IMG/VR virus record: IMGVR_UViG_3300047552_000145
Span: 1-64,000 of that record
DNA from: a virus
Length of the DNA stretch: 64,000 nt
Reading direction: 5' to 3' (one strand)
Below the pieces are notes generated by a model. That model was given only the letters and a program-made list of their open reading frames with translations, was not told where the DNA came from and ran no database searches. This document shows positions 6,968 to 61,845 of the stretch, in pieces (within the stretch, counting starts at the first letter, position 1; each line of letters begins with the position of its first letter). Made by a program: the position numbers and the translations under genes.

Positions 6968-7620
6968 TGAAGACATTTATACATCATGATTTTGCGAAAT
7001 TAGAGAGGGATACTTTTGCTGACGGGCGACGTGTTTACGTTACACCTGAAGGTAAAAAGTATCCTTCAGTCACATCCATCACTGGAGTTAATAGCACATT
7101 TAACAAGAGTGCTTGGATTCAACGTGTTGGTGTGGATGAAGCAAATAGAATTACTCAGCGAGCACTTGACCGTGGTACTCGCATTCACTCGTTCTGTGAA
7201 AATTTCTTACTTGGTAATGAAGTAAAGATTGATATGTTCGATCAAGATATGTGGAGCACAATGCTACCTCTCTTGAATAAGATCGACAATATCCACTGCC
7301 TTGAAACACCACTATATTCTGACTTCTTGCAAGCAGCTGGTACAGTTGACTGTATTGCCGAGTATGAAGGTAAGTTATCCGTCATCGACTTTAAAACTTC
7401 TTCGAGAGTAAAAGAGCGCAATGATATTCATAACTACTTTGAACAGACTGCGGCTTATGCTGTTATGTTTGAAGAACGTACAGGTATTCCAATTGGTCGT
7501 TTAATTATCTTGATGGTGATTGATGACGACGCACCAAGAGTATTCATTGAAAAGCGTGATGGTTGGATTGCAGGTTTCCGTAAGTCTAGAATGGACTACA
7601 GGCAGAAGTATGGAGTATAA
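6967..7620 (+). CDS. PD-(D/E)XK nuclease, RecB/Cas4-like exonuclease
   Basis: A 217-residue protein with the nuclease core AGTVDCIAEYEGKLSVIDFKTS at about residues 126-147: an Asp (VD), then DFK, the D...(D/E)xK signature. An upstream RGTRIHSFCE block at about 70-79 supplies the conserved His/Glu. QTAAYAVMFEE after it is the usual QxxxY motif. Related phage enzymes are single-strand exonucleases in replication or recombination. It overlaps phoH and the next oxygenase gene. Confidence 0.85.
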   Translation: MKTFIHHDFAKLERDTFADGRRVYVTPEGKKYPSVTSITGVNSTFNKSAWIQRVGVDEANRITQRALDRGTRIHSFCENFLLGNEVKIDMFDQDMWSTMLPLLNKIDNIHCLETPLYSDFLQAAGTVDCIAEYEGKLSVIDFKTSSRVKERNDIHNYFEQTAAYAVMFEERTGIPIGRLIILMVIDDDAPRVFIEKRDGWIAGFRKSRMDYRQKYGV

Positions 7621-8164
7621 GAAAAACGAGTGGTGGGTTACTCCAGTTTGGGAGATTGACACTGGTCTTTCTTCAGACTATAATGCTCGCTTACTCTATG
7701 ATTTAAAGACTTTTGGAAAGAAGTCTTACAACATATGGAATGAAGATATTCCCTCACTTGGACCATTGAAAGCCAAGGTTATTGAAGCGTTGAGTAATAC
7801 AGTCAAGGATTATTTCCCCGATTATTATCCTTACAATCCAGTCATCTATAATGGTTGGGTGCAGTTTCATAAAACTGGCGAGATGCTTCACGTTCATGAC
7901 CATGGTGGTGTAATCGTCGCTTGTGTCTATTATGTTAAGGCACCAGAGGACAGCGGGGATCTTTTATTAATAGATCCTAGAGGAAGCGTTAATTGGGACT
8001 GGGAAACTGATGGGATTGATGGTGCCAAATATAAACGTGTTAAACCGAAAGAAGGTAAATTGGTTATCTTCCCAGGATATGTTATGCACGCAGTAGATCC
8101 GAACAACTCTAAAGATGAGCGGGTCAGTATCGCCATAAATATTCATAACCATATAAATACTTGA
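7610..8164 (+). CDS. 2-oxoglutarate/Fe(II)-dependent oxygenase
   Basis: Start chosen at ATG 7610 (MEYKKNEWWVTPVW), a normal beginning for this phage family; the upstream extension to 7520 lies inside the nuclease gene. In 184 residues it shows LHVHDHGG at 93-100 (iron ligands His94 and His96 or Asp97), a beta-strand block VIVACVYYVK, the distal His160 in YVMHAV and Arg171 in ERVSIAINI for 2-oxoglutarate. This fits the PF13759-type phage 2OG oxygenases, which hydroxylate proteins or small molecules. It lies directly before the Cys-rich peptide, so that peptide is a candidate substrate. Confidence 0.87.
   Translation: MEYKKNEWWVTPVWEIDTGLSSDYNARLLYDLKTFGKKSYNIWNEDIPSLGPLKAKVIEALSNTVKDYFPDYYPYNPVIYNGWVQFHKTGEMLHVHDHGGVIVACVYYVKAPEDSGDLLLIDPRGSVNWDWETDGIDGAKYKRVKPKEGKLVIFPGYVMHAVDPNNSKDERVSIAINIHNHINT
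8152..8159 (+). promoter_or_regulatory. T4-type late promoter box TATAAATA
   Basis: An exact match to the T4 late -10 consensus TATAAATA, inside the last codons of the oxygenase gene and 27 bases before ATG 8187. It is the only perfect match found at a gene boundary in the window and indicates late expression of the Cys-rich peptide cassette. Confidence 0.7.
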
Positions 8165-8186
8165 GATATACATCAAAGAGGTCAAC

Positions 8187-8573
8187 ATGACAACCCCAGC
8201 ATCAGGACAAATAGCCATTAGCGATCTTATCGCAAACCAAGGTAACTTGGGATATGCTAATGCATTAAGTTGGTTAGATTCCAACACAAAAGATAGTGTC
8301 AGCGATTTAAACTCTGCTCATAGCAGAGCAACATATCAACGTAACGTTGATGGTAACTGTAATAATGGTAACTGTACTGAGTCTGGCGCAAATTGTGGTA
8401 ACATTAATTGTGTGAACTGTTTGAATTGTAACACTATTAATTGCACCAACTGCGATACTCGAGAGTGGATGCAAGGTAACTGTAACTGCGCTTGTACATA
8501 TAACTGCACCCAAAACACTCGTTCATATAACTGTAACTGCGACTGTCTAGTTTGCGCTTGCGCTTGCTGGTAA
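8187..8573 (+). CDS. Asn-Cys-rich peptide, candidate modified-peptide (RiPP-like) precursor
   Basis: The 128-residue protein has two parts. Residues 1-57 hold no Cys and start with SGQIAISDLIANQGN, which resembles N-termini of phage structural proteins. Residues 58-128 contain 18 Cys, 13 of them directly preceded by Asn (GNCNNGNC, INCVNCLNCNTINCTNC), and the chain ends CACACW, so Trp128 is C-terminal; another Trp is at about 94 (REWMQ). AGAGG lies before ATG 8187. A SPASM radical SAM gene follows 15 bases later and halogenase, oxygenase and B12-type radical SAM genes are adjacent, so it is a likely substrate. Alternatives are a metal-binding (metallothionein-like) protein or a disulfide-rich virion decoration. 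No known RiPP class is matched. Confidence 0.75.
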   Translation: MTTPASGQIAISDLIANQGNLGYANALSWLDSNTKDSVSDLNSAHSRATYQRNVDGNCNNGNCTESGANCGNINCVNCLNCNTINCTNCDTREWMQGNCNCACTYNCTQNTRSYNCNCDCLVCACACW

Positions 8574-8588
8574 TATAAAAGGAATATT

Positions 8589-10031
8589 ATGATTTTTGAG
8601 ATTTTATCATCACACCCAACTCATGGTAATAAAACATTTTACTATGATAATGAATTTAACGTTTTAAAAGATGCTGATGGGAATGTTTTTGAATACCCTG
8701 AAATTCAGAAACCTGAAATGCAGGAAACACGTGCATTTTCCAAGGATGCCCCTCTTAAGAAATCAAAAGATATTAATTTAATTAAGATTCAACTTGGATT
8801 GTCTTGTAACTATACTTGTGATTATTGCTCACAAAGATTCGTTGAACGTCCACCAGAAACTTCAAAGAAAGATATTGACGCTTTTCTTTCTAAGCTAGAT
8901 GTACTTAACATCACAGAAGAACAAGGCATCAAATTCGAGTTTTGGGGTGGTGAGCCTTTGGTTTACTGGAAAACTCTAAAACCACTGACCGAAGCTATCC
9001 GTGAAAAGTATTCTCACTGGTCTAAGAACCAACCATTATTCAGTATGGTTACTAACGGTTCTTTGTTAACACGAGAAATCTGTTCTTGGTTGTACTTCAT
9101 GAACTTTAATATTGGTATCAGTCACGATGGTCCTGGTCAACACGTTCGTGGTCCAGACCCATTCGATGATCCAGAAAAGAAAGAGATTATTCTCGAGTTC
9201 TACAACATCATGCACGAGCAGAACCGCATCAGCTTCAATACTATGATGAACCGTAGAAACACCAGCCGTAAAGCTGTTCGTGATTGGTTCGTTGCGCTCA
9301 CTGGTAAAGAAGACGTTCGTATAGGTGAAGGTAATTTCGTAGACGCTTATGATGAAGCAGCTATTGAAAACTCTTTACAGTCATATAAAGAACACTTTGA
9401 GTACCGTCGTCAGGCATTCCAAGAATTAATGTCATCTGGTAGCAGCCTGAACTTTGGTAACACTCTTGCTAAAGTTGATATGTTCACTCGCGAAGTTCTA
9501 ACTCACTTTGAATCCAAGTATACTGGACAGAAGTGCGGTATGGATGATGAACATACTATTGCTATCGACTTGAAGGGTAATGTGGTTACTTGCCAAAACG
9601 TTTCTATTATGGAAACAAGTAAGAATGGTGAATCACACCTTGGTGGTAGCCTTGATGATTACGATAACGTTGAAATCAAATCAGCCACTCACTGGAAGAA
9701 CAGAGACGTGTGTGTTAAGTGCCCTGTACTACACTTATGTAAAGGTTCTTGCATGTACCTTGATGGTAAGTATTGGGATGTTACTTGCGACAGCGCATAT
9801 TCTGATAACGTTTCTTTGTTCGCAGTGGCATTGACTAGAATCACTAATGGCTATGTTCCTTATGCTATTTCTTCTAAGGAACTACCACCCCATAGACAAG
9901 ATATTTGGGGAACTATTTTAAAACACGAAGAAAAACCAAAAATGAAAACTATCCCAATCAAGGTAGTGGCTGAGGTCATTGGTAAGATTGACGATGTTGA
10001 AGTTTATGGTAAAACACGTTTGGAGAATTAA
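8589..10031 (+). CDS. SPASM-domain radical SAM peptide maturase
   Basis: A 480-residue enzyme. The radical SAM cluster motif is C73xxxC77xxC80 (SCNYTCDYC), followed by FWGGEPL (about 118-124), the usual second conserved block. The C-terminal part has Cys-rich SPASM signature segments: CGMDDEHTIAIDLKGNVVTC, then CVKCPVLHLCKGSC and a last Cys in DVTCDSAYSDN. SPASM enzymes bind two extra 4Fe-4S clusters and modify peptides (thioether or C-C crosslinks) or mature sulfatases. Its nearest neighbour is the 18-Cys peptide; pairing of the two is inference. A poorly conserved N-terminal segment of about 60 residues could bind the peptide leader. Confidence 0.9.
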   Translation: MIFEILSSHPTHGNKTFYYDNEFNVLKDADGNVFEYPEIQKPEMQETRAFSKDAPLKKSKDINLIKIQLGLSCNYTCDYCSQRFVERPPETSKKDIDAFLSKLDVLNITEEQGIKFEFWGGEPLVYWKTLKPLTEAIREKYSHWSKNQPLFSMVTNGSLLTREICSWLYFMNFNIGISHDGPGQHVRGPDPFDDPEKKEIILEFYNIMHEQNRISFNTMMNRRNTSRKAVRDWFVALTGKEDVRIGEGNFVDAYDEAAIENSLQSYKEHFEYRRQAFQELMSSGSSLNFGNTLAKVDMFTREVLTHFESKYTGQKCGMDDEHTIAIDLKGNVVTCQNVSIMETSKNGESHLGGSLDDYDNVEIKSATHWKNRDVCVKCPVLHLCKGSCMYLDGKYWDVTCDSAYSDNVSLFAVALTRITNGYVPYAISSKELPPHRQDIWGTILKHEEKPKMKTIPIKVVAEVIGKIDDVEVYGKTRLEN

Positions 10032-10658
10032 ATGCAAATTACTTTACATGACCAAGTCGAAGCCTTGAAGCAGATTGAAAGTGTGACGCTTGTTTATTGT
10101 AATGAACCAGACTTAGATGTTAGAACGCAGGTTGGTGATGAACCAGCTATTGCGTTCAACATTGAACGAGGCGAGAGGCTTGTAACTCTTGTTATACCAG
10201 ATTCATATTGGTCTACAACTCCATTTACACCAGAAGCAGGTGAACACGTTAAGGGTTGGTTAGACTTTATGGATCAACAAGATATCAAAACTCAAACATT
10301 TTGGTATCGTCTGTCTGAGGATAGATTCGTTCGTTTAAAAGGTACGTTGAAGATTGCTGACGAAGACTTGCCAGAGAATGCTAAGTTACTAGCTGAAGCG
10401 TATGCATCAGTTGATCATGTAACTGGCGTCAAAGTCCGTAAAATTATTGATTATAGATTAGTCAGCGAAGTAGGTTGTACTGAAGCGTTACAGTTTTATT
10501 GTATGATTGATATTCCATCTTTACAGAGTGAGTATCATATCAATATGTACTGCCCTAAAAACATTTGGGATAAACCAGAAGAGTTTGAAGGTCAAAAAGT
10601 TAGATTACTTGAACAAGTTAATATTAGAATCGAACAAAGCAAACAATTATTTGGTTAA
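10032..10658 (+). CDS. unknown protein inside the modification cassette
   Basis: The 208-residue protein begins at the base after the maturase stop. It is acidic, mixed alpha/beta, and has no recognised catalytic motif; Cys occurs at only a few places (VYCNEP, GCTEAL, YCMIDI, MYCPKN). The segment DIPSLQSEYHINMYCP looks like a beta-strand pair. Its place between the maturase and the halogenase suggests a substrate-binding or partner role, perhaps like a RiPP recognition element, but no such fold can be demonstrated here. Confidence 0.65.
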   Translation: MQITLHDQVEALKQIESVTLVYCNEPDLDVRTQVGDEPAIAFNIERGERLVTLVIPDSYWSTTPFTPEAGEHVKGWLDFMDQQDIKTQTFWYRLSEDRFVRLKGTLKIADEDLPENAKLLAEAYASVDHVTGVKVRKIIDYRLVSEVGCTEALQFYCMIDIPSLQSEYHINMYCPKNIWDKPEEFEGQKVRLLEQVNIRIEQSKQLFG

Positions 10659-10660
10659 TT

Positions 10661-11851
10661 ATGAATAAATTTGTTATTATCGGCGGTGGCACTGCAGGGT
10701 GGGTCACCGCTTTGACCATTAAGAAGTATGTACCATACTGTCATGTTACAGTTATTGCTAGTTCAGAAATTGGCATTCTTGGTGCAGGTGAAGGTGTAAC
10801 ACCACACTTCAATGAGTTGATGAATGATTTAGATATCACCATGTCAGATATCTTCAAACACACCAAAGCCACGTATAAGCGTGGTATCAAGTTTACTAAT
10901 TGGAACGGTGATGATACACATTATTACCATCCATTCTGGGATGACAAGAGCGCAGTACATTTTGACGCTTCATTGCTGGCCAAATACTTACAAGGCGTGG
11001 CGCTATCCCGTGGTGTTGAGTTAATCGACGACCAAGTTATCAATATCAATTCTAAGAACGGAAATATTACTTCCTTTGTCCTTAAAGGTGGACAGAACGT
11101 TGAATCTAATTTTGTGTTCGATTGTTCTGGTTTACACCGTCTAATTATTGGTAAGCACTATAACGTTGAGTGGAAACCATACGATTCAATGTTGCCGTGT
11201 AACCGTGCTTTACCTTTCTTTATTCAAAGTGATGATGAGAAACCTGAATATACAGAAGCCATTGCCATGAAATATGGTTGGGTTTGGAGAATTCCCGTTC
11301 AAGGGAGATATGGTTGTGGTTATGTATTTGATAAGAGATATATTAGCGATGAAGAAGCTATTGCAGAACTCAAAGAGAAGTTTGGTGATATAACTATCCC
11401 TCGCGCATTTGATTTCAAAGCAGGTGCCTTTGAAAAGACTTGGGTGAATAACTGTATCGCTATTGGATTGTCTGCTGGTTTTACTGAACCACTAGAAGCA
11501 ACTTCTATCTGGATTCAAATCCTTTCACTTCGTCATTATCTACTACAACATGCTGCTTATGTTAGAGGCGATCTAAGAGTGGTAAACTCTTATAATGAAT
11601 ATGTCGCAAACATCAACAAATATATGGCTGACTTTATTCACAGGCACTATCTAACACAAAGGTCAGATAGTGGTTTCTGGAAAGAATTCAGAACCAAACA
11701 ACCTTCACCAAAATATGTTAAAATGGTTGATGATATTAAAGAGAGAGTGGCAACTTATCACCTTTCTTATATCAATATCACCAATGGTATGAAGTATGAA
11801 TCACCAGTTGTACCTGACAGCTGGAATGTTATTATTGATGGGACTCGCTGA
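10661..11851 (+). CDS. flavin-dependent tryptophan-halogenase-family enzyme (first copy)
   Basis: A 396-residue protein with FAD-binding GGGTAGW at residues 8-14, the catalytic-type lysine K73 in ATYKRGIKF, the family-defining WxWxIP motif (W207, W209) and the SAGFTEPLEATS block (E276). All key residues of tryptophan halogenases are therefore present. Length is shorter than classical PrnA-like enzymes (about 530), mostly in the C-terminal part. Family members add Cl, Br or I to aromatic carbons with FADH2; a cyanophage member, VirX1, prefers iodide in the literature. A Trp or Tyr of the Cys-rich peptide is a plausible target. It needs a flavin reductase, not seen here, presumably from the host. 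Confidence 0.92.
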   Translation: MNKFVIIGGGTAGWVTALTIKKYVPYCHVTVIASSEIGILGAGEGVTPHFNELMNDLDITMSDIFKHTKATYKRGIKFTNWNGDDTHYYHPFWDDKSAVHFDASLLAKYLQGVALSRGVELIDDQVININSKNGNITSFVLKGGQNVESNFVFDCSGLHRLIIGKHYNVEWKPYDSMLPCNRALPFFIQSDDEKPEYTEAIAMKYGWVWRIPVQGRYGCGYVFDKRYISDEEAIAELKEKFGDITIPRAFDFKAGAFEKTWVNNCIAIGLSAGFTEPLEATSIWIQILSLRHYLLQHAAYVRGDLRVVNSYNEYVANINKYMADFIHRHYLTQRSDSGFWKEFRTKQPSPKYVKMVDDIKERVATYHLSYINITNGMKYESPVVPDSWNVIIDGTR

Positions 11852-13347
11852 TGGCTAATTGTGTTATATTATCGGGTGGTACATGGAGTCCGGATGGATG
11901 GTGTACAGTTAAGAGGTCTCTTGGACCATATCGCCTAGCATCATCTCTAGAAGACCATGGTTATTCGTCATTTATTCTAGACTATGTTGAAAACTTTACA
12001 ACTGAAGAAGTCATCAAAGCCTTAGATAAGCACATTGGCGAAGATACTATTTGGTTCGGCTTTTCTTCTACGTTTTTCTGGTTGAAACAAACTCAACAAA
12101 CAAACGCCAGAACAGGTAGCGATGAGTTGAATGAGATGTATTATGATAATTATGATGAAGTCAAAAAGGTTATCGACTTTGTAAAAAGTAAAGGTGTTAA
12201 GATCCTTTATGGTGGATCAAAAGCACCATACTTTTCTCTGAATGATGTTGATTCCAGTATTGACTATTATGTTACTGGTAATGCTGATAACTCAATCATT
12301 GATATTACGAATTACCTTGCTGGTAAAGTAGATTCTATTCAGCATTTGAACGATCGTACTATTGATTCCACAAAATATCCAGAACCTGATGTAAAGAATA
12401 TTCCAACACGCTGGTGGAATCATAATATTATGTGGGGTGAGGGTTTACCTCTTGAACTATCGCGTGGTTGTATTTTTAAATGTAAGTTTTGTGATTTTCC
12501 ACTAACTGGCAAGAAGAAAGGTACATACCTCCGAGACCCTGAACAGATTAAAGATGAAATGATTAAGACGTGGGAAGCTCATGGTACTGATTCATACTTC
12601 TTCACCGACGATACTTTCAACGACGATAATGATAAACTGGAAGCCTTGCATAAAGTGTTTACCAGCTTACCATTCAAACCTAAATTCGCATCATATCTTA
12701 GAATTGATCTGATTAACAAATATCCACACCAAGCAGACTTACTATCTGAAATGGGTTTGGTTGGAACATTCTTTGGTATTGAAACTCTTCAACCTGACTC
12801 AGCAAAAGCTATTGGTAAAGGTTTACACCCAAACAAAGTTAAAGATCGTTTATACTGGTTGAGAGAACAGTGGAAGAATACAGTAAACATTGAAGCTGGT
12901 TTTATCCTCGGTTTACCATATGATACACTGTCATACTTCAACGATTTGTTAATGTGGACGTTGGAGAAAGATAATCCAATCCAGTGTATCAACTATTACC
13001 CTTTGATGTTATTTTATTACAAAGATCATAAAGAGCTTCAACGTTATTCTTCTGAGTTTGCCTTGAACCCAGAAATTTATGGTTACACTTTTGACAATAG
13101 CATCTCCAGCTGGCAGTTGAAGTCTCAGAAGCTAAACTATAATATGTGCTTGGATATATCCAAGAAGTTTAGTGATTTAAGAAAACCTCTTAATCAAATT
13201 GCTGGGTTCTATACAATCACGAGTTTAAACACTGGCGTTCCACTTGAGGATATCTACACAATGACGCAAGTTGATATTCAAAAGAAATACAATATCCCCG
13301 AAATGAACGCTAACCGTGTTGCTGAATATAAGGGTATGGTTTTATGA
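11851..13347 (+). CDS. B12-binding-type radical SAM enzyme
   Basis: The 498-residue product has a Rossmann-like N-terminal domain (about residues 1-160; ILSGG start, FGFSSTFF and ILYGGSKAP blocks) resembling cobalamin-binding domains, though no clear DxHxxG cobalamin motif is seen. The radical SAM motif is C207xxxC211xxC214 (GCIFKCKFC). A C-terminal helical region of about 100 residues follows. Members methylate unactivated carbons or rearrange substrates. It overlaps the halogenase stop (TGATG) and the next gene by ATGA, so these genes are translated together. Substrate unknown. Confidence 0.85.
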   Translation: MANCVILSGGTWSPDGWCTVKRSLGPYRLASSLEDHGYSSFILDYVENFTTEEVIKALDKHIGEDTIWFGFSSTFFWLKQTQQTNARTGSDELNEMYYDNYDEVKKVIDFVKSKGVKILYGGSKAPYFSLNDVDSSIDYYVTGNADNSIIDITNYLAGKVDSIQHLNDRTIDSTKYPEPDVKNIPTRWWNHNIMWGEGLPLELSRGCIFKCKFCDFPLTGKKKGTYLRDPEQIKDEMIKTWEAHGTDSYFFTDDTFNDDNDKLEALHKVFTSLPFKPKFASYLRIDLINKYPHQADLLSEMGLVGTFFGIETLQPDSAKAIGKGLHPNKVKDRLYWLREQWKNTVNIEAGFILGLPYDTLSYFNDLLMWTLEKDNPIQCINYYPLMLFYYKDHKELQRYSSEFALNPEIYGYTFDNSISSWQLKSQKLNYNMCLDISKKFSDLRKPLNQIAGFYTITSLNTGVPLEDIYTMTQVDIQKKYNIPEMNANRVAEYKGMVL

Positions 13348-13994
13348 TAGTTGAAAACATTTTTGGTTCACCTGTTGTTAGAGTTAAGTGTGAAGACACT
13401 AGCTTATGGCGCAATGAAACTCTTAACAACAGCATCGAGATGATGTATAAGTCACCAGTGGTTATTAACCGTGTGCGAAATCAAGTTGGTGATTCTCATT
13501 TCGGTGCTGGTATGACTACAGTTGGCCAACCATATCCACTAGTCACTCTCCCAGGAGTCAAAGGGTTAAGAGACTGGGTTAGACAAACATTACTCGATGC
13601 TAGACCAGCGCTTGGGTTTGAAGGTAAAGGTACTGATGTTCGCTTTAAAAGAAGCTGGACTAACCGACTACTCAAAGGTGGCTATGGTTTATGTCATAAT
13701 CATACAAAGATTGATAATTACATGGAAATGTCTGGGTATAGTTCTACAGATTTTAAACCAGATGTTGTTTCGATCTTCTATGCTGATGTGCCAGAAAACA
13801 GTTCCAACTTGGTATTCATAAAAGACGGTGCACCTGATACTAGGATTGAGGATTATCCAGCTGAAAGACAACATTGGTTACAACCTATCGAGGGTGAACT
13901 TGTAATGCATACACCTGAGGTCTGGCACGCTGTAAGTATGCATATGTCAGATATTCCAAGAAATGTTTTTGTTTTTGACATTGACTTCCAATAA
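13344..13994 (+). CDS. putative 2OG-Fe(II) oxygenase-like protein
   Basis: A 216-residue protein that resembles the phage 2OG oxygenase group: a His-rich segment GLCHNHTKIDNY (about 114-125) followed by a strand VVSIFYADVP, then GELVMHTPEVWHAVSMH and IPRNVFVFDIDF, giving the distal His and Arg in the usual order. The His/Asp ligands are less canonical than in the gene at 7610, so assignment is moderate. Its N-terminus (VENIFGSPVVRVK) also fits this group. It closes the modification cassette; its stop codon lies inside the tmRNA promoter. Confidence 0.65.
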   Translation: MIVENIFGSPVVRVKCEDTSLWRNETLNNSIEMMYKSPVVINRVRNQVGDSHFGAGMTTVGQPYPLVTLPGVKGLRDWVRQTLLDARPALGFEGKGTDVRFKRSWTNRLLKGGYGLCHNHTKIDNYMEMSGYSSTDFKPDVVSIFYADVPENSSNLVFIKDGAPDTRIEDYPAERQHWLQPIEGELVMHTPEVWHAVSMHMSDIPRNVFVFDIDFQ

Positions 13995-14009
13995 ATAATC
14001 AGGTATAAT
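13981..14009 (+). promoter_or_regulatory. sigma70-type promoter of the tmRNA gene
   Basis: TTGACT (13981-13986), 17-base spacer, TATAAT (14004-14009). The -35 box lies in the end of the preceding gene. The spacer also contains ATAAATA (13991-13997), so a late box overlaps the early promoter; expression may therefore run early and late. Confidence 0.8.
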
Positions 14010-14015
14010 ATAGGT

Positions 14016-14351
14016 TATTGCTGTAATTCCTTCAAAGCGAAGGACTTCTGGACGGGGGTTCGACTCCCCCCATCTCCACCAAAAGCAGAAGCACTAAAAG
14101 TACCCTTGAGTGGGTATACGATTTTAGTTCGTGGAATCGGGTAACGGAAAAAAGTGAACCCGAATGGCTACTAAACTGCTTTTGATGGGGATGCCATGGT
14201 TTCGACAGGGGTAGATAGTAGCGACGGCAGCACGTCAGGAGTAGACGTTAAAAGCAAATCAAACTAAATGCAAACGATGAAGTTTTCGCATTGGCAGCCT
14301 AAACGCTGACTAGGGTTTCGATGGGTTTCCTCGTAACAGAATAACCCATCA
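14016..14351 (+). ncRNA. ssrA: permuted (two-piece) tmRNA
   Basis: Gene order is reversed relative to normal tmRNA. The acceptor piece comes first: T arm GGGGG-TTCGACT-CCCCC (14054-14070), acceptor strand CATCTCC (14071-14077), then A and an encoded CCA ending at 14081. An intervening segment follows (14082-14186); AAAAGCAG at 14081-14088 can pair with CTGCTTTT at 14176-14183. The coding piece starts GGGGATG at 14187, which pairs with CATCTCC and gives a G3:U pair, the alanine identity element. GGTTTCGACAGGGG follows, as in known tmRNAs. The tag frame GCA...TAA is 14270-14302 and encodes ANDEVFALAA. A hairpin, GATGGGTT/AACCCATC (14320-14350), lies near the 3' end. Exact mature ends are estimates. 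Confidence 0.92.
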
Positions 14352-14367
14352 CTAATTCGGAGATATT

Positions 14368-14871
14368 ATGATCGGTGTTGTATTAGGTAATGGTCCAAGT
14401 CGTGAGTTCTACGATAGAAAAGGTGATATTGTCCTTGGTTGTAATATTCCCAATGAACAATTCAGCGTAGATGCGACTGTTATTTGCGATGAAGAAATTG
14501 CTTGGATTATTAAGAATGACTTGACTTTAATTCAAGTTCCAGTTATAATATCTACTAAGGTGTTTGAAAAATTAAAAGAATTCAAGATTGTTGATAAGTT
14601 TATAATCTTGGATGTTTTCAAACCAAAAGACTGGTACAATGCAGCGCACTATGCTGCAGAATATTTGATACAAAACACTGAGTGTGAACAGATAGAGTTA
14701 TGGGGTTGCGACTCTATTTTTGAGAATACTGTTTCATCTACAACTGGAAAATTAATCCAGCAAAGCACTCAAGGTGATACAAGGTTTGTTCGTAATTGGC
14801 GTAGAGTTTGGAATGAGATGCACCTGAATAACCCTGATGTGCATTTCGTGGCTATGAGAATGCCTAAATAA
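14368..14871 (+). CDS. Rossmann-like protein with VLGNGPSR motif
   Basis: The 167-residue protein begins MIGVVLGNGPSREFYDRKGDIVLGCN; GNGPS near the N-terminus is typical of DUF115-type and related sugar/pterin transferase-like phage proteins. A central ELWGCDSIFE block is also seen in such proteins. GGAG precedes the start, which lies just after the tmRNA. Proteins of this kind occur in T4-like phages near structural or modification genes; the substrate is unknown. An internal promoter-like sequence lies at 14521. Confidence 0.6.
   Translation: MIGVVLGNGPSREFYDRKGDIVLGCNIPNEQFSVDATVICDEEIAWIIKNDLTLIQVPVIISTKVFEKLKEFKIVDKFIILDVFKPKDWYNAAHYAAEYLIQNTECEQIELWGCDSIFENTVSSTTGKLIQQSTQGDTRFVRNWRRVWNEMHLNNPDVHFVAMRMPK
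14521..14549 (+). promoter_or_regulatory. promoter-like sequence inside a coding region
   Basis: TTGACT (14521-14526), 17-base spacer, TATAAT (14544-14549), all inside the gene at 14368. The first 14 bases TTGACTTTAATTCA are identical to the promoter at 5348. It could supply the downstream lysis and ClpP genes early, or be a coincidence of coding. Confidence 0.55.
14864..14870 (+). promoter_or_regulatory. late-promoter-like box CTAAATA
   Basis: CTAAATA overlaps the stop codon of the preceding gene and is followed by ATATA; 60 bases before ATG 14930. It could drive the 14930, SleB and ClpP genes late. Confidence 0.45.
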
Positions 14872-15261: not shown

Positions 15262-15780
15262 ATGCGTAAAGCAAAATTAATACTACTTGGTTCTGTTATT
15301 ACACTTTGTACCTTAATTGGTCTTGGTCACACAATGGAACAAAACAAACTAATGGATATCGCATATAGCGATCTAACTAAAGAAGCCAGAAAGCAGGTAG
15401 ACTGCTTGGCTGAAAATATTTACCACGAAGCTGGGTTTGAGCCAGAAAAAGGTAAACAAGCTGTTGCTTTGGTAACGCTTAATAGAACACAAGATGAACG
15501 TTTTCCTTCACAGATATGTGAAGTCGTAAAACAAAAGACTCAAGGTACATGTCAGTTCAGTTGGTTCTGTATGCCTGTTAAATTGAAAAGAGATTCTGAC
15601 GCATTTAGGGAATCTATGCAAGTTGCCCTATTTGTTTATGCAAACTATGAGAAGTTGAAAGACGTCACACATGGCGCTCTTTACTATCATGCGGACTACG
15701 TCAACCCTCGTTGGCGAAATGTCGAAAAGACAACCGTCATTGGTCGTCACATTTTTTATAAGGAAAAACTGAAATCATGA
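15262..15780 (+). CDS. SleB-type cell-wall hydrolase with N-terminal membrane anchor
   Basis: The 172-residue protein has an N-terminal hydrophobic segment (about residues 5-23), then a Hydrolase_2/SleB domain: CLAENIYHEAGFEPEKGKQAVALVTLNRT, FPSQICEVV, QFSW, and the terminal HGALYYHADYVNPRW...IGRHIFY. These enzymes cleave peptidoglycan (lytic transglycosylase-like). The anchor could be a signal peptide or a signal-arrest-release sequence, which would make this the likely endolysin. AAAGGAGA precedes the ATG. It overlaps the ClpP gene by ATGA. No holin is recognised beside it, though the small membrane protein at 16334 is a candidate. Confidence 0.87.
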   Translation: MRKAKLILLGSVITLCTLIGLGHTMEQNKLMDIAYSDLTKEARKQVDCLAENIYHEAGFEPEKGKQAVALVTLNRTQDERFPSQICEVVKQKTQGTCQFSWFCMPVKLKRDSDAFRESMQVALFVYANYEKLKDVTHGALYYHADYVNPRWRNVEKTTVIGRHIFYKEKLKS

Positions 15781-16337
15781 TGAATAAATTAAACCTACAA
15801 CTTACCGACGGTGGAGATTCTAAACACTCGTTTTTCCTAATGATGGAAGAAATCAGTTTAGCTACTTGTAAGTCTGCCGTCGAGTGGATTCTTGAAGCTA
15901 ACTTTACCGAAGAACGACCAGAGATGCTTAATTTGATTATCACTTCTCCAGGTGGCGATTTAAACGCAGCATTCGCATTGATTGACGTTATGCGTGGTTC
16001 AGCTATTCCAGTTCGTACGATTGGTCTTGGTCAAATCGCTTCTGCTGGTCTTATGATTTTTATTGCTGGTGAAAAGGGACAACGCATCCTTACACCTAAT
16101 ACTTCAATTCTTTCTCACCAATACTCTTGGGGTGCTATTGGTAAAGAGCACGAATTGTTTGCTCAAATTAAAGAGTTTGACCTGACTACCAAAAAGGTTA
16201 TCGACCACTACAAGCGTTGTACTGGTCTTGCGGATAAAAAGATTCGCGAAGTTCTATTACCCCCACAAGACGTTTGGCTATCCCCCATTGAAGCCAAGAA
16301 ACTAGGTTTATGTGATGATGTTAAGGATCTAAAATGA
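15777..16337 (+). CDS. clpP: ClpP-like serine protease
   Basis: A 186-residue member of the ClpP/crotonase superfamily with an intact catalytic triad: Ser89 in GQIASAG, His114 in ILSHQYSWG and Asp165 in PPQDVW. The substrate-binding loop SPGGDLNAAFALID (57-70) is also present. ClpP forms tetradecamers that degrade proteins delivered by ClpX or ClpA; the phage version must use a host unfoldase or act alone, for example in prohead maturation. The same phage makes a tmRNA whose tag ends LAA, the signal recognised by ClpX. It overlaps the hydrolase and the following membrane gene. Confidence 0.9.
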   Translation: MMNKLNLQLTDGGDSKHSFFLMMEEISLATCKSAVEWILEANFTEERPEMLNLIITSPGGDLNAAFALIDVMRGSAIPVRTIGLGQIASAGLMIFIAGEKGQRILTPNTSILSHQYSWGAIGKEHELFAQIKEFDLTTKKVIDHYKRCTGLADKKIREVLLPPQDVWLSPIEAKKLGLCDDVKDLK

Positions 16338-54569: not shown

Positions 54570-55022
54570 ATGGCACTTACAAAGGCATCATCTGGAGTTT
54601 TAACTCCAAACCCACAAACTAACTCAGTTGGCGTTGGAACTGCAGCTTCAGGCACTGCTGGTGAGATTAGAGCAACCAATCAGATCACTGCATTCTATTC
54701 TGATAAAAGATTGAAGACTGAAGTTGAACAGATTAAGAACGCTTTAGAAAAAATCGAACAGTTAACTGGAGTGGTTTATACACAGAACAAATTAGCTGAG
54801 AAGTTTGGTTATAACAACTATGAAGAACAGGTTGGTCTTTATGCTCAAGACGTAAAGAAAGTTCAACCTCAAGCCGTCAAACCTGCTCCATTTGATATTG
54901 CAGAAGACGGTTCTAGCAAGTCTGGTGAAAACTATATGACTGTTCAGTATGATCGTTTGATTCCATTAATCGTAGAAGCAATTAAAGAACTAAAAGAACG
55001 AGTTGATAAGTTAGGAGCATAA
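54570..55022 (+). CDS. free-standing S74 intramolecular chaperone-type protein
   Basis: A 150-residue protein that is almost only a peptidase S74 domain: FYSDKRLKTEVEQIKNALEKIEQLTGVVYTQNKLAEKFGY...QVGLYAQDVKKVQPQAV...YDRLIPLIVEAIKELKERVDKLGA, with a 45-residue low-complexity leader (SSGVLTPNPQTNSVGVGTAASG). The Ser of SDKRLK is intact. No shaft is present, so it may be a shortened fibre or act in trans on the glycine-rich adhesin beside it. It starts the adhesin triplet. Confidence 0.82.
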   Translation: MALTKASSGVLTPNPQTNSVGVGTAASGTAGEIRATNQITAFYSDKRLKTEVEQIKNALEKIEQLTGVVYTQNKLAEKFGYNNYEEQVGLYAQDVKKVQPQAVKPAPFDIAEDGSSKSGENYMTVQYDRLIPLIVEAIKELKERVDKLGA

Positions 55023-58990: not shown

Positions 58991-60226
58991 ATGAATAAAT
59001 TCTCTAAGAGATTTTCTGTTGCGCATTTTGATAGATTTAGTGGTGAATATGAAGACTTCTATTATAGGGTCATGAAGAACGCTGATCCAGCGTACTTGGA
59101 TAACATCCACGATGTTTATTTTGGTAAGTATTTTGAATATGAATACAAGGGTGAGGTTAAACGATGTGGTAACGCCATGGGTGTTCAAGCATCAGACGCC
59201 CAAGTAGATTATTTGTTTAAACTACAAGAAGAAACTGGTGTTGAAATATCTTTAACGTTCAACACAGTTGAAGTTCCAAACGAGGTTGTATTTGATCACG
59301 ACATTCGCGCTAAGTTCGTTGAGTGGATTGGTTCATATTATGATAGAGGTTTAAGGTCTTGTACAATCAGCTCAGAGCATATTATGCGCACGGGTGAATT
59401 ACAAGCTAGATGTCCAGACATGCGTTGGAAGTCTACTGTAAATCAGATTGTGGCAGACGCACAGCAACTAATTGACTATGCATACCTTGGTTATAATACA
59501 ATTCTGCTAGACCGTTCTTTAAATAGAAACATTAAAGAGCTTCGCCGTATTCGCGAAGCTCAAAATTATCTAAACAGCAAAAACCCTCAAAAGAAACTAC
59601 TAACATCTCTATTGGTGGCGGAGTCTTGCATCTATAGATGCCCGTTCAAGAAAGAACACGACGCTGTTGGTGAACATATCAGTACAGAATACTTTGCTGG
59701 ACCAGCGAACCTTTCATGTAACGGATGGAGAGGTCTACAACAATTCGCAGAACTACCACGTTCAGGTATTGACTTGGTTGCCAACGACGCTACTATGTTT
59801 AACAAGTTCTTTGATTTAGTTGATATTTTTAAATACTCTGGTCGTTTGACAGTCCCAGCAACCAACTTAGAAGATACCGAACACCTAAAGGCAGTTTGGT
59901 TCTATAAGGGTGGCGACAGGTTTAAGCAGGTTATTAAGTTCGCAAACGAAACAGTTTATGCTGATAACTTTCAAGATATTGTTGAAAATAACTTAATGCC
60001 AATCCACGAATGGGTTCCAGGATGGGTTGATGTAAGGACTGTAAAGGGTGATTACACAAAAACCTTCAAAGGATACAACGGCATTTGGACAACTGAAGGT
60101 GGTAAAAAACTAGAGAAGTTGTTATCTTCTTGTAGAAACCAATGTTGGGATTGCCACGAGTGCGAGCGTACTTTTGGATTCCAAGACATTGACTCAGCAT
60201 TACAAATAAGGAAAGAATTTAAATGA
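58991..60226 (+). CDS. U32-peptidase-like Fe-S protein
   Basis: ATG 58991 is chosen because GAGGTG lies 9 bases upstream; a GTG at 58979 overlaps that site. The 411-residue protein has a TIM-barrel-like pattern (YDRGLRSCTISSEHIMR, YAYLGYNTILLDRSLNRNIKELRRIREA) followed by SLLVAESCIYRCPFKKEHDAVGEH, close to the ESC-x-CP...H motif of the U32 family. The C-terminus adds CRNQCWDCHEC. U32-type proteins (UbiU/UbiV, TrhP) hold a 4Fe-4S cluster and hydroxylate RNA or quinones; some are proteases. It overlaps the halogenase gene (ATGATG). Function here is inferred. Confidence 0.65.
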   Translation: MNKFSKRFSVAHFDRFSGEYEDFYYRVMKNADPAYLDNIHDVYFGKYFEYEYKGEVKRCGNAMGVQASDAQVDYLFKLQEETGVEISLTFNTVEVPNEVVFDHDIRAKFVEWIGSYYDRGLRSCTISSEHIMRTGELQARCPDMRWKSTVNQIVADAQQLIDYAYLGYNTILLDRSLNRNIKELRRIREAQNYLNSKNPQKKLLTSLLVAESCIYRCPFKKEHDAVGEHISTEYFAGPANLSCNGWRGLQQFAELPRSGIDLVANDATMFNKFFDLVDIFKYSGRLTVPATNLEDTEHLKAVWFYKGGDRFKQVIKFANETVYADNFQDIVENNLMPIHEWVPGWVDVRTVKGDYTKTFKGYNGIWTTEGGKKLEKLLSSCRNQCWDCHECERTFGFQDIDSALQIRKEFK

Positions 60227-61845
60227 TGAAAAACCAAATTAACTCTATCACGATTGTTGGCGGTGGAAGTTCTGGTTGGATGACAGCAGCAGCTATTTCT
60301 AAGCAACTCCCAGAAGTAAAATTAACATTGATTGAATCGCCAAACATTCCAATCATTGGAGTTGGAGAATCTACAATTGGTCATATTAATGAGTTCTTAA
60401 GTTTATTAGATCTCAAGGATGAGGATTGGATGCCTCACTGTAATGCAACTTATAAAACTTCTATCAAGTTCATTGACTTTAGAGAGAATCCAAAAGAAGA
60501 ACCTCATAAGTTTCACTATCCATTTGGTATGTTTGATTTCACGGATAAACCAAGATCTATTATGGATTGGTTTATCAACAAGGTACACAACCCAGAAATT
60601 GACAATTCAAACTTTGCAGAGTTCTTTCATGATTCAATCTTGATGACTGATAAGAACAAGCTAACAAAGAATGAAGATGGAAAGGTTCGAGGTTTTGATT
60701 TTAGAACCGACACTGCGTACCACATGGACGCCACAAAGTTTGGTATATTCTTACGAGATAAACTATGCCTACCATCAGGTATGACACATATTCTCGATGA
60801 TGTTACTGAGGTTAATAAAGACGAAAACGGTTACATTAAAACTATCTCCACAAAACAATCTGGTGATCTACACGCTGATTTGTTCATTGACTGTACTGGT
60901 TTTAAATCTTTATTATTAGAACAAGCGATGGGTGTAGAGTTTGTGTCTTTTCACGATACCCTAATGAACGATAGTGCTATCGCTACTATCATCCCTTATA
61001 TCGACAAAGATAAAGAGATGGAAAACTACACAAGTTGTACAGCGATTGAAGCTGGATGGGTTTGGAATATTCCTCTATGGAATCGTATCGGCACTGGATA
61101 TGTTTATTCTTCTAAGTTCGCCACTAAGGAAGAAGCCGAAGCGCAGTTTAGAAAACACTTAAAAAGCAACCGTATGATATTCCCAGACGCAGAACGTGCG
61201 GATACTTGCGAAGTGCGTCATATTAAAATCAAACATGGTGTTCATAAAAAGGCATGGGAAAAGAACGTTATCGGTGTTGGTTTGTCTAATGGCTTTATTG
61301 AACCGCTAGAGTCGACAGGGTTGATGTTAACTCATGAGTGTATCACAAAGATTATTAGCCTGTTGAAGATGAGAAATCGAAATGTAACACGCTTTGATGT
61401 TGACACTTTCAATTACGCTTTTTATGAACAGATCTTAGGGTTTAAGGAATTTATCTCCCAGCACTATGCGCTGTCGATGAGGAACGATACTCCATATTGG
61501 AAACATGTATCTGGTAATGTTGAGTATTCAAAGTCTATGACAGAATTTGTCCCAGCTATTCTAACATCAAACCAAGACTTGGCTTCTAGGTTGTTTAGGT
61601 CTAGAGTATTTGATAACTCTTCAATGAGCGGCATCATCTATATCGCAGCGGGTATGGGTTATAACCCAATAGATTCTGCTAAGATTAAATACCAGAACTT
61701 AAAATATATGGAAACTGTTGATGGACAGAAAGAAGTGTATTCTAACTGGCTCTTACATAAAGAAGAAGTATTAAAACATATCGAAACTCTTGAGACTCAC
61801 TATAAATTCCTTGCAAGAACTATTCATAAAACGGAAGAAGCATAA
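60223..61845 (+). CDS. flavin-dependent tryptophan-halogenase-family enzyme (second copy)
   Basis: A 540-residue protein of classical halogenase length. FAD motif VGGGSSGW (12-19), catalytic-type lysine K78 in ATYKTSIKF, WxWxIP (W279, W281) and GLSNGFIEPLESTG (E360, S364) are all intact. It is clearly a different lineage from the 396-residue enzyme at 10661, with an additional C-terminal helical region (about 400-540). Members halogenate Trp or other aromatics with FADH2, O2 and halide; phage halogenases are known from cyanophages. It is coupled to the U32-like gene. The substrate is not evident; virion proteins or host metabolites are options. Confidence 0.92.
   Translation: MMKNQINSITIVGGGSSGWMTAAAISKQLPEVKLTLIESPNIPIIGVGESTIGHINEFLSLLDLKDEDWMPHCNATYKTSIKFIDFRENPKEEPHKFHYPFGMFDFTDKPRSIMDWFINKVHNPEIDNSNFAEFFHDSILMTDKNKLTKNEDGKVRGFDFRTDTAYHMDATKFGIFLRDKLCLPSGMTHILDDVTEVNKDENGYIKTISTKQSGDLHADLFIDCTGFKSLLLEQAMGVEFVSFHDTLMNDSAIATIIPYIDKDKEMENYTSCTAIEAGWVWNIPLWNRIGTGYVYSSKFATKEEAEAQFRKHLKSNRMIFPDAERADTCEVRHIKIKHGVHKKAWEKNVIGVGLSNGFIEPLESTGLMLTHECITKIISLLKMRNRNVTRFDVDTFNYAFYEQILGFKEFISQHYALSMRNDTPYWKHVSGNVEYSKSMTEFVPAILTSNQDLASRLFRSRVFDNSSMSGIIYIAAGMGYNPIDSAKIKYQNLKYMETVDGQKEVYSNWLLHKEEVLKHIETLETHYKFLARTIHKTEEA

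Follow-up and report, generated by a model that had tools for sequence, protein, structure and literature searches.

What does a phage modify with two radical S-adenosylmethionine (SAM) enzymes, a halogenase and two oxygenases whose genes surround that of a small protein rich in Asn-Cys pairs? We addressed this question in the first 64,000 nucleotides (64 kb, hereafter the window) of the IMG/VR virus record IMGVR_UViG_3300047552_000145, a record of 81,266 bp as a whole in which T4-type baseplate and tail genes are present. An original prediction, made from the letters of the window, had described a cassette resembling those that produce ribosomally synthesized and post-translationally modified peptides (RiPPs). 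The fullest explanation of our comparisons, and one that we regard as reasonably probable, is that the cassette modifies a protein of the virion tail tip after translation.

The cassette comprises seven intact genes, all on the plus strand between positions 7610 and 13994, separated by 0-22 bp or overlapping by a few bases. We compared their products with Pfam, PHROG and NCBIfam, which gave the following assignments:

7610..8164, plus strand: OXY1, a 184-residue 2-oxoglutarate (2OG)-Fe(II) oxygenase of the 2OG-FeII_Oxy_5 / TIGR02466 type (PF13759, 4.5e-20; phrog_81, 1.1e-32; TIGR02466, above cut-off)
8187..8573, plus strand: NC protein, 128 residues with 18 Cys; candidate substrate; no match in Pfam, PHROG or NCBIfam
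8568..8570, plus strand: codon for the terminal Trp of the NC protein (CACACW-COOH); predicted halogenation site, co-occurring with the cassette-type halogenase
8589..10031, plus strand: SPASM radical SAM maturase, 480 residues (phrog_1802, 4.2e-65)
10032..10658, plus strand: U208, 208 residues in two related domains of ~100 residues; no family match
10661..11851, plus strand: HAL, a 396-residue flavin-dependent enzyme of the tryptophan-halogenase family, short form (PF04820, 1.7e-95)
11851..13347, plus strand: B12-type radical SAM enzyme, 498 residues (PF04055, 5.2e-16; TIGR04072, 2e-18, and PhpK-type, 2e-15, both below cut-off)
13344..13994, plus strand: OXY2, a 216-residue 2OG-oxygenase-like protein (PF13759, 4e-6, just above cut-off; phrog_81, 1.8e-12)

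Every open reading frame of the predicted, tightly packed seven-gene run was thus found at its expected position and strand. Family searches agree with the original prediction on the 2OG-Fe(II) oxygenase, the SPASM radical SAM enzyme, the tryptophan-halogenase-family enzyme and the second oxygenase-like protein, and our count confirms 18 Cys in the Asn-Cys-rich peptide. The proposed B12-type radical SAM enzyme held up in part: it has radical SAM cysteines (Cys207/211/214) and resembles B12-binding models, but all of those scores lie below cut-off (that of TIGR04072 far below), and the DxHxxG motif was not found in its sequence.

The maturase and its probable Asn-Cys unit

As predicted, the maturase carries the radical SAM motif C73xxxC77xxC80 and passes the TIGR04085 SPASM model (31.8 bits, cut-off 27). 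Its SPASM region holds the full seven-Cys set (C316-x13-G330-x4-C335 ... C375x2C378x5C384x3C388 ... C400), and the radical SAM and SPASM cysteines are invariant in 19 relatives, Achromobacter enzymes included. The closest NCBIfam models describe RiPP maturases, all with scores well short of the cut-off, with the PapB ranthipeptide model NF047865 the best (79.9 bits, 1.9e-22, cut-off 340) and CcpM and geopeptide models also among them. The maturase is 43% identical to PJWF_00030 of the cultured, temperate Achromobacter phage JWF, annotated as 'anaerobic sulfatase-maturating enzyme', while PHROG 1802 is annotated as 'radical SAM domain-containing protein'.

The NC protein begins with an N-terminal part (residues 1-55, 'TTPASGQIAISDL') and continues with an array (residues 56-128) that holds all 18 Cys, mostly as Asn-Cys pairs. 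Its gene is preceded by a ribosome-binding site, and comparison with its counterpart in locus L005 gives 33 synonymous and 5 non-synonymous codon changes, indicating purifying selection. Across relatives, the NC proteins align with invariant Cys. A tblastn search of cultured phages with the NC protein returned no match, with the BLAST low-complexity filter in play, and arrays were located by Cys-array regular expressions and a DNA pattern scan in its place. A strict Asn-Cys-array criterion is satisfied once in the window and nowhere in the 709 kb of flanking sequence remote from maturases, which argues that the array is not a chance feature.

We looked among relatives both for the enzymes without the peptide and for the peptide without the enzymes, and the proposed link between the two survived in either direction, the pair being almost inseparable. 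Scanning IMG/VR with the maturase returned 80 loci (among them L004, identical to the window cassette, and several near-duplicates), and a homologous Cys-rich protein lies on the same strand, adjacent to ~1.5 kb away, in 78. This count is homology-based, as the strict array criterion overlooked the sparser arrays of L025-type phages; the two loci without such a protein (L029, L038) are both cut by contig ends. The maturase alignment, scanned against bacterial genomes, found 80 loci from Burkholderiales, Rhodobacterales, Rhodospirillales and others, 59 of which have a strict Asn-Cys array near the maturase on the same strand. In the reverse direction, a DNA-pattern scan of IMG/VR for NCNCNCNC found 66 loci with a motif-bearing open reading frame, and the maturase profile was present in the fetched flank of 52, one of which (L235) is probably a false pair. 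Two of the 14 loci without a maturase are low-complexity non-genes, and the others have at most ~2.7 kb of downstream DNA, the enzyme often lying ~3 kb off. From this pairing, the maturase very probably acts on the NC protein.

The reverse scan also recovered proteins of 67-95 residues that end in HTHxFYDDYxTxCNCNCNCNC plus a few residues (L175, L216, L240, L181, L224). Where flanks are present, these short proteins adjoin one to four radical SAM genes, and they are apparently a further branch of the same kind of system.

What the maturase might recognize within the array is suggested by the residue before each Cys. We considered isolated Cys, defined as those lacking a second Cys at a distance of two residues, which keeps alternation from producing the signal. 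Asn precedes 270 of 313 such Cys in the T4-like family (86%) and 169 of 229 in the fibre-tail family (74%); the -1 position carries 3.4 and 2.4 bits, respectively, and every other position at most 1.4 bits. Over all Cys of the T4-like family, Asn stands at -1 in 752 of 1003, the remainder being mostly Ala, Asp and Gln. Because Asn precedes so large a share of the isolated Cys, these data point to the Asn-Cys dipeptide as the maturase's substrate unit.

Sequence alone fixes this unit and not the bond, and a thioether inside the Asn-Cys pairs, though our first choice, is a claim to which we give slightly less than an even chance. SPASM enzymes are also known to epimerise residues and to form carbon-carbon bonds, and the pairs could be modified otherwise, by epimerisation, by oxidation of the Asn side chain or by a bond to some other residue of the trimer. 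We consider this rather unlikely: the closest models of the maturase (PapB, CcpM, geopeptide) are thioether makers, though far below cut-off, and an acceptor adjacent to the donor Cys has chemical precedent in enteropeptin, where Cys is joined to the alpha-carbon of its partner residue in a six-membered thiomorpholine ring (PMC12395415).

The terminal tryptophan and the tailoring enzymes

The halogenase retains all the key residues claimed for it, namely GGGTAGW, the catalytic Lys73 (KxGIKF), WVWRIP and EPLEAT, with the GxGxxG/Lys/WxWxIP/EPLE elements at positions 8, 73, 207 and 276. At 396 residues it is short relative to the ~540 of PrnA-type enzymes, and alignment with its best solved relative (9luq, 1.5e-60) leaves a gap of ~57 residues after residue 93. 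The absence of these residues may open the active site to a peptide.

Every phage that has the cassette-type halogenase and whose array lies within the available sequence ends that array in Trp, as CACACW, CNCW or CLW, or as CFWS before an S74 domain. Searching whole records, we found this halogenase in 11 of 11 records whose array-end Trp adjoins the C-terminus or an S74 domain. It was absent from every phage lacking a terminal Trp; three of these carry only distant halogenases (22-33% identity). The association gives a Fisher p = 4e-9, which we do not use as a probability because of shared ancestry. Of its two exceptions, L035 was a parsing error, and L078 has a Trp internal to its array and no halogenase in its 30-kb fragment. 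L085 has a halogenase, and its array would fall past the contig end. This co-occurrence supports the original proposal that the halogenase tailors the peptide, and HAL, whose activity is itself predicted, probably acts on the Trp of the NC protein.

The window also encodes a second, full-length PrnA-type tryptophan halogenase (60223-61845, plus strand, 540 residues; phrog_2928, 1e-152). It lies just after tail-fibre-assembly-type genes and is preceded by a 415-residue protein without a Pfam match.

The remaining enzymes belong to a set that is kept while its order changes. The window reads OXY1-NC-SPASM-U208-HAL-B12-OXY2, L012 reads OXY2-B12-NC-SPASM-U208-OXY-OXY-HAL, and L026 reads NC-SPASM-U208-OXY-OXY-HAL-OXY2, inside a tail block; this conservation of content through rearrangement argues for a joint function. 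OXY1-like oxygenases adjoin the maturase in most HAL-type phages, and enzymes of the same 2OG type, of weak similarity, occur by prophage-type maturases at 34 of 79 loci. A relative of OXY2 (53%) is found in the L026 and L008 cassettes. The B12-type gene, which lies on the opposite side of the NC gene in L012, L013 and L078, would encode an enzyme of the methyl- or alkyl-transfer type.

U208 stands directly 3′ of the maturase in HAL-type phages; in L069, L071 and L072 a tandem pair of single-domain genes takes its place. The AlphaFold 2 (AF2) model of U208 is a confident fold (pLDDT 90.8, pTM 0.73), for which a structure search found no significant match in PDB or BFVD. No cassette protein has a Pfam match to a PqqD-like RRE domain, and our guess is that U208 serves as a substrate adaptor or chaperone.

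It could be that HAL, the B12-type enzyme and the 2OG enzymes are mere neighbours of the pair, with unrelated metabolites or phage DNA as their substrates. Such enzymes do scatter: T4-like phages of marine and fresh waters commonly carry 2OG enzymes and halogenases, and the halogenase of HTVC008M adjoins the terminase. The set nevertheless stays together through the changes of order between the window, L012 and L026, and the presence of HAL tracks the array-end Trp, which makes simple proximity improbable.

Position of the array in tail fibres

Relatives of the NC protein indicate where such an array resides. Some are fused to a Peptidase_S74 domain (L078, 1.7e-12; L016, 1.3e-4), with SDxxLK directly after the array, and alignment shows that the N-terminal part of the NC protein is common to these fused versions. 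In phage JWF, the array NCNCDCNCNCSC lies immediately before a Hint domain in the tail-fibre-type protein PJWF_00028, whose gene stands after tail genes and two genes ahead of that of the maturase PJWF_00030. Prophage arrays form the very C-terminus of PHROG tail-fibre-family proteins (T4 gp36-like, collagen-repeat proteins included) encoded between tail and lysis genes. A stand-alone NC form is placed after giant tail genes in L065, L069 and L035.

Cleavage by S74 domains occurs close to the SDxxLK signature, whereas Hint domains cut at the first of their Cys. The three architectures (at the fibre C-terminus, before S74 and before Hint) would thus leave the array at, or immediately beside, the C-terminus of the mature protein, in a fibre-tip place. 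Based on these comparisons, the NC protein is likely a tail-tip component of the virion; for the window, where it is stand-alone and without an S74 domain of its own, this assignment is drawn from relatives.

Two further observations concern these processing domains. In JWF (L001:9799-11250), a Hint (intein-like) domain immediately follows the Asn-Cys array, an arrangement that recurs in prophages L089, L126, L160-L162 and L164, where, as in JWF, it could bring about self-processing at the fibre tip. The window has a separate small S74-chaperone gene at 54570-55022 (plus strand; PF13884, 3.2e-14).

Dense, regular Cys could bind Fe or Zn, and AF2 cannot fold the array protein, so we considered an array that forms a metal- or cluster-binding tip, comparable to metal-bound phage spikes, with the radical SAM enzyme only inserting or protecting and no carbon-sulfur bond being made. 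Metal sites fix the spacing of Cys and not the preceding residue, whereas Asn at -1 dominates here even for isolated Cys, and the maturase has the full SPASM cofactor set of peptide-modifying enzymes; we judge a metal tip quite improbable.

Least probable, and in our view very unlikely, is a secreted or lysis-released antimicrobial RiPP (a phage bacteriocin) unrelated to the virion: a SPASM maturase by a small Cys-rich protein, a tailoring halogenase, closest models that are RiPP maturases such as PapB, and an NC protein that is short and stand-alone in the window phage do resemble RiPP clusters, but searches of Pfam, PHROG and NCBIfam found no leader peptidase, exporter or immunity gene among the seven cassette genes, while relatives carry the array in fusions with tail-fibre, collagen-repeat, S74 or Hint domains and are sited in tail blocks, and the N-terminal part of the NC protein recurs in the S74-fused forms. 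Of the two fates originally offered for the peptide, display on the virion is therefore the probable one, since homologous arrays end tail fibres or precede S74 or Hint domains, and release at lysis is unsupported. Similarly, the 'RiPP-like' label fits the chemistry and the precursor-maturase pairing but not the substrate, which looks structural rather than like a leader-core precursor, nor the lack of genes for export and leader removal.

A proposed modified tail tip and known systems

For a cassette that modifies its own tail tip, we propose the following course. The SPASM enzyme would act on the Asn-Cys pairs of the NC protein, most likely joining the Cys sulfur to a backbone or side-chain carbon of the neighbouring Asn; a thioether, at -2 Da per pair, would yield a stiff, protease-resistant cap. 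The short HAL would next halogenate the C-terminal Trp, the 2OG enzymes and the B12-type radical SAM enzyme would add hydroxyl or methyl groups, and U208 would present the substrate. The finished cap would be displayed at the tail-fibre tip for host contact. While gene content, pairing, the Asn-Cys unit, the array position in relatives and the Trp co-occurrence are observed, we infer which bond is made, in what order the steps occur, what U208 and the B12-type enzyme do, and that the window's NC protein is present in the virion. The modification itself is a prediction from sequence comparison.

Several observations weigh against this proposal. A distant maturase without a clear array, by the criteria used, is present at about five complete prophage-type loci (L095, L134, L149, L154 and possibly L152/L158, with weak arrays). 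The phages with both halogenase and Trp form two clades of the maturase tree, leaving at most a few independent events. A C-terminal cap is not universal, as a fourth architecture, the commonest among IMG/VR relatives, has an internal array followed by a domain of ~170 residues. AF2 obtained no fold for the NC protein (pLDDT 40), and this model was not interpreted. Finally, the NC gene of the window lies outside the tail block, flanked by a PhoH/exonuclease block and a transfer-messenger RNA (tmRNA).

The ~170-residue post-array domain ('CSKIVCAKL..ADQAYG..GYIRWAR') is conserved, ends in a hydrophobic stretch, matches no Pfam family and occurs in most IMG/VR relatives (L019-L083, e.g. L024:4636-5631). 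The tmRNA directly 3′ of the cassette (13967-14368, plus strand) is circularly permuted and of betaproteobacterial type (RF01850, 157 bits; RF04321, 144 bits), with the tag ANDEVFALAA; a nearby tmRNA also occurs in relatives L004-L008, L012 and L014, where the tags differ. Less than 1.5 kb from the phage tmRNA is a ClpP-family protease gene (15777-16337, plus strand; PF00574, 7.5e-28), and the two are possibly a tagging and degradation pair carried by the phage.

In the usual view, phages recognize their hosts by ordinary protein tips, with chaperones or metals. Comparisons with well over 100 related phages and prophages suggest that many phages modify their own tail-fibre tips in this manner. 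Tentatively, and at somewhat worse than an even chance, radical SAM enzymes would rebuild these tips by turning Asn-Cys arrays into a chain of sulfur-bridged, thiomorpholine-like rings, which in the window phage would be methylated, hydroxylated and capped by a halogenated Trp, as a widespread and unrecognised class. If true, receptor binding, tip stability and host range could hinge on a phage-supplied, oxygen-sensitive enzyme, and expression of fibres without the maturase would yield an immature product. A likely function would be gained for a family that carries no annotation beyond 'radical SAM' in Burkholderiales, Rhodobacterales and Rhodospirillales phages and prophages, a predicted peptide halogenase acting next to a Cys array would be on offer, and the cultured phage JWF makes the idea of modification directly testable. 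In line with the original statement that no phage cluster of this composition had been described, we found no description of the system in the open-access full-text literature on radical SAM and tail fibres, RiPPs and virions, or halogenases and cyanophages, and JWF-related papers do not mention the radical SAM enzyme.

The closest known systems each share a part of this arrangement. SPASM RiPP maturases (PapB, CcpM, geopeptide and sactipeptide enzymes) have the same radical SAM core, seven-Cys SPASM and adjacent Cys-rich substrate gene, whereas the phage substrate is tied to tail fibres and its cassette is without exporter or leader protease. The PapB motif is CX3D; alternating Asn-Cys arrays put no Asn four residues after Cys, as such a motif would require. 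PHROG 1802 and JWF PJWF_00030 offer a homologous maturase two genes after a tail-fibre protein with an array, yet are annotated without this function, and the JWF fibre has a Hint domain and no halogenase cassette. Tail fibres with S74/endosialidase chaperones end in the same self-processing domain as some NC proteins, with SDxxLK right after the array, unlike the NC protein of the window.

Among halogenases, SrpI and MibH are flavin-dependent enzymes acting on peptidyl Trp, as predicted here. SrpI restricts bromination to the C-terminal Trp of an LCCCW core with modified Cys, comparable to CACACW in the window (PMC10286304). In contrast to RiPP Trp halogenases, HAL is ~130 residues shorter than typical family members, has no proteusin leader to work with and is set in a phage. 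Like the Asn-Cys unit, the enteropeptin sactipeptides imply an adjacent partner residue through their six-membered Cys-alpha-carbon ring (PMC12395415); they bear one ring, on N-methylornithine-Cys in a short antibiotic, as opposed to up to 18 Asn-Cys-type pairs in a virion-type protein. Together, these comparisons describe a system that would work like RiPP tailoring without RiPP export or leader removal, on an apparently structural substrate, and that has a real chance of being a new class.

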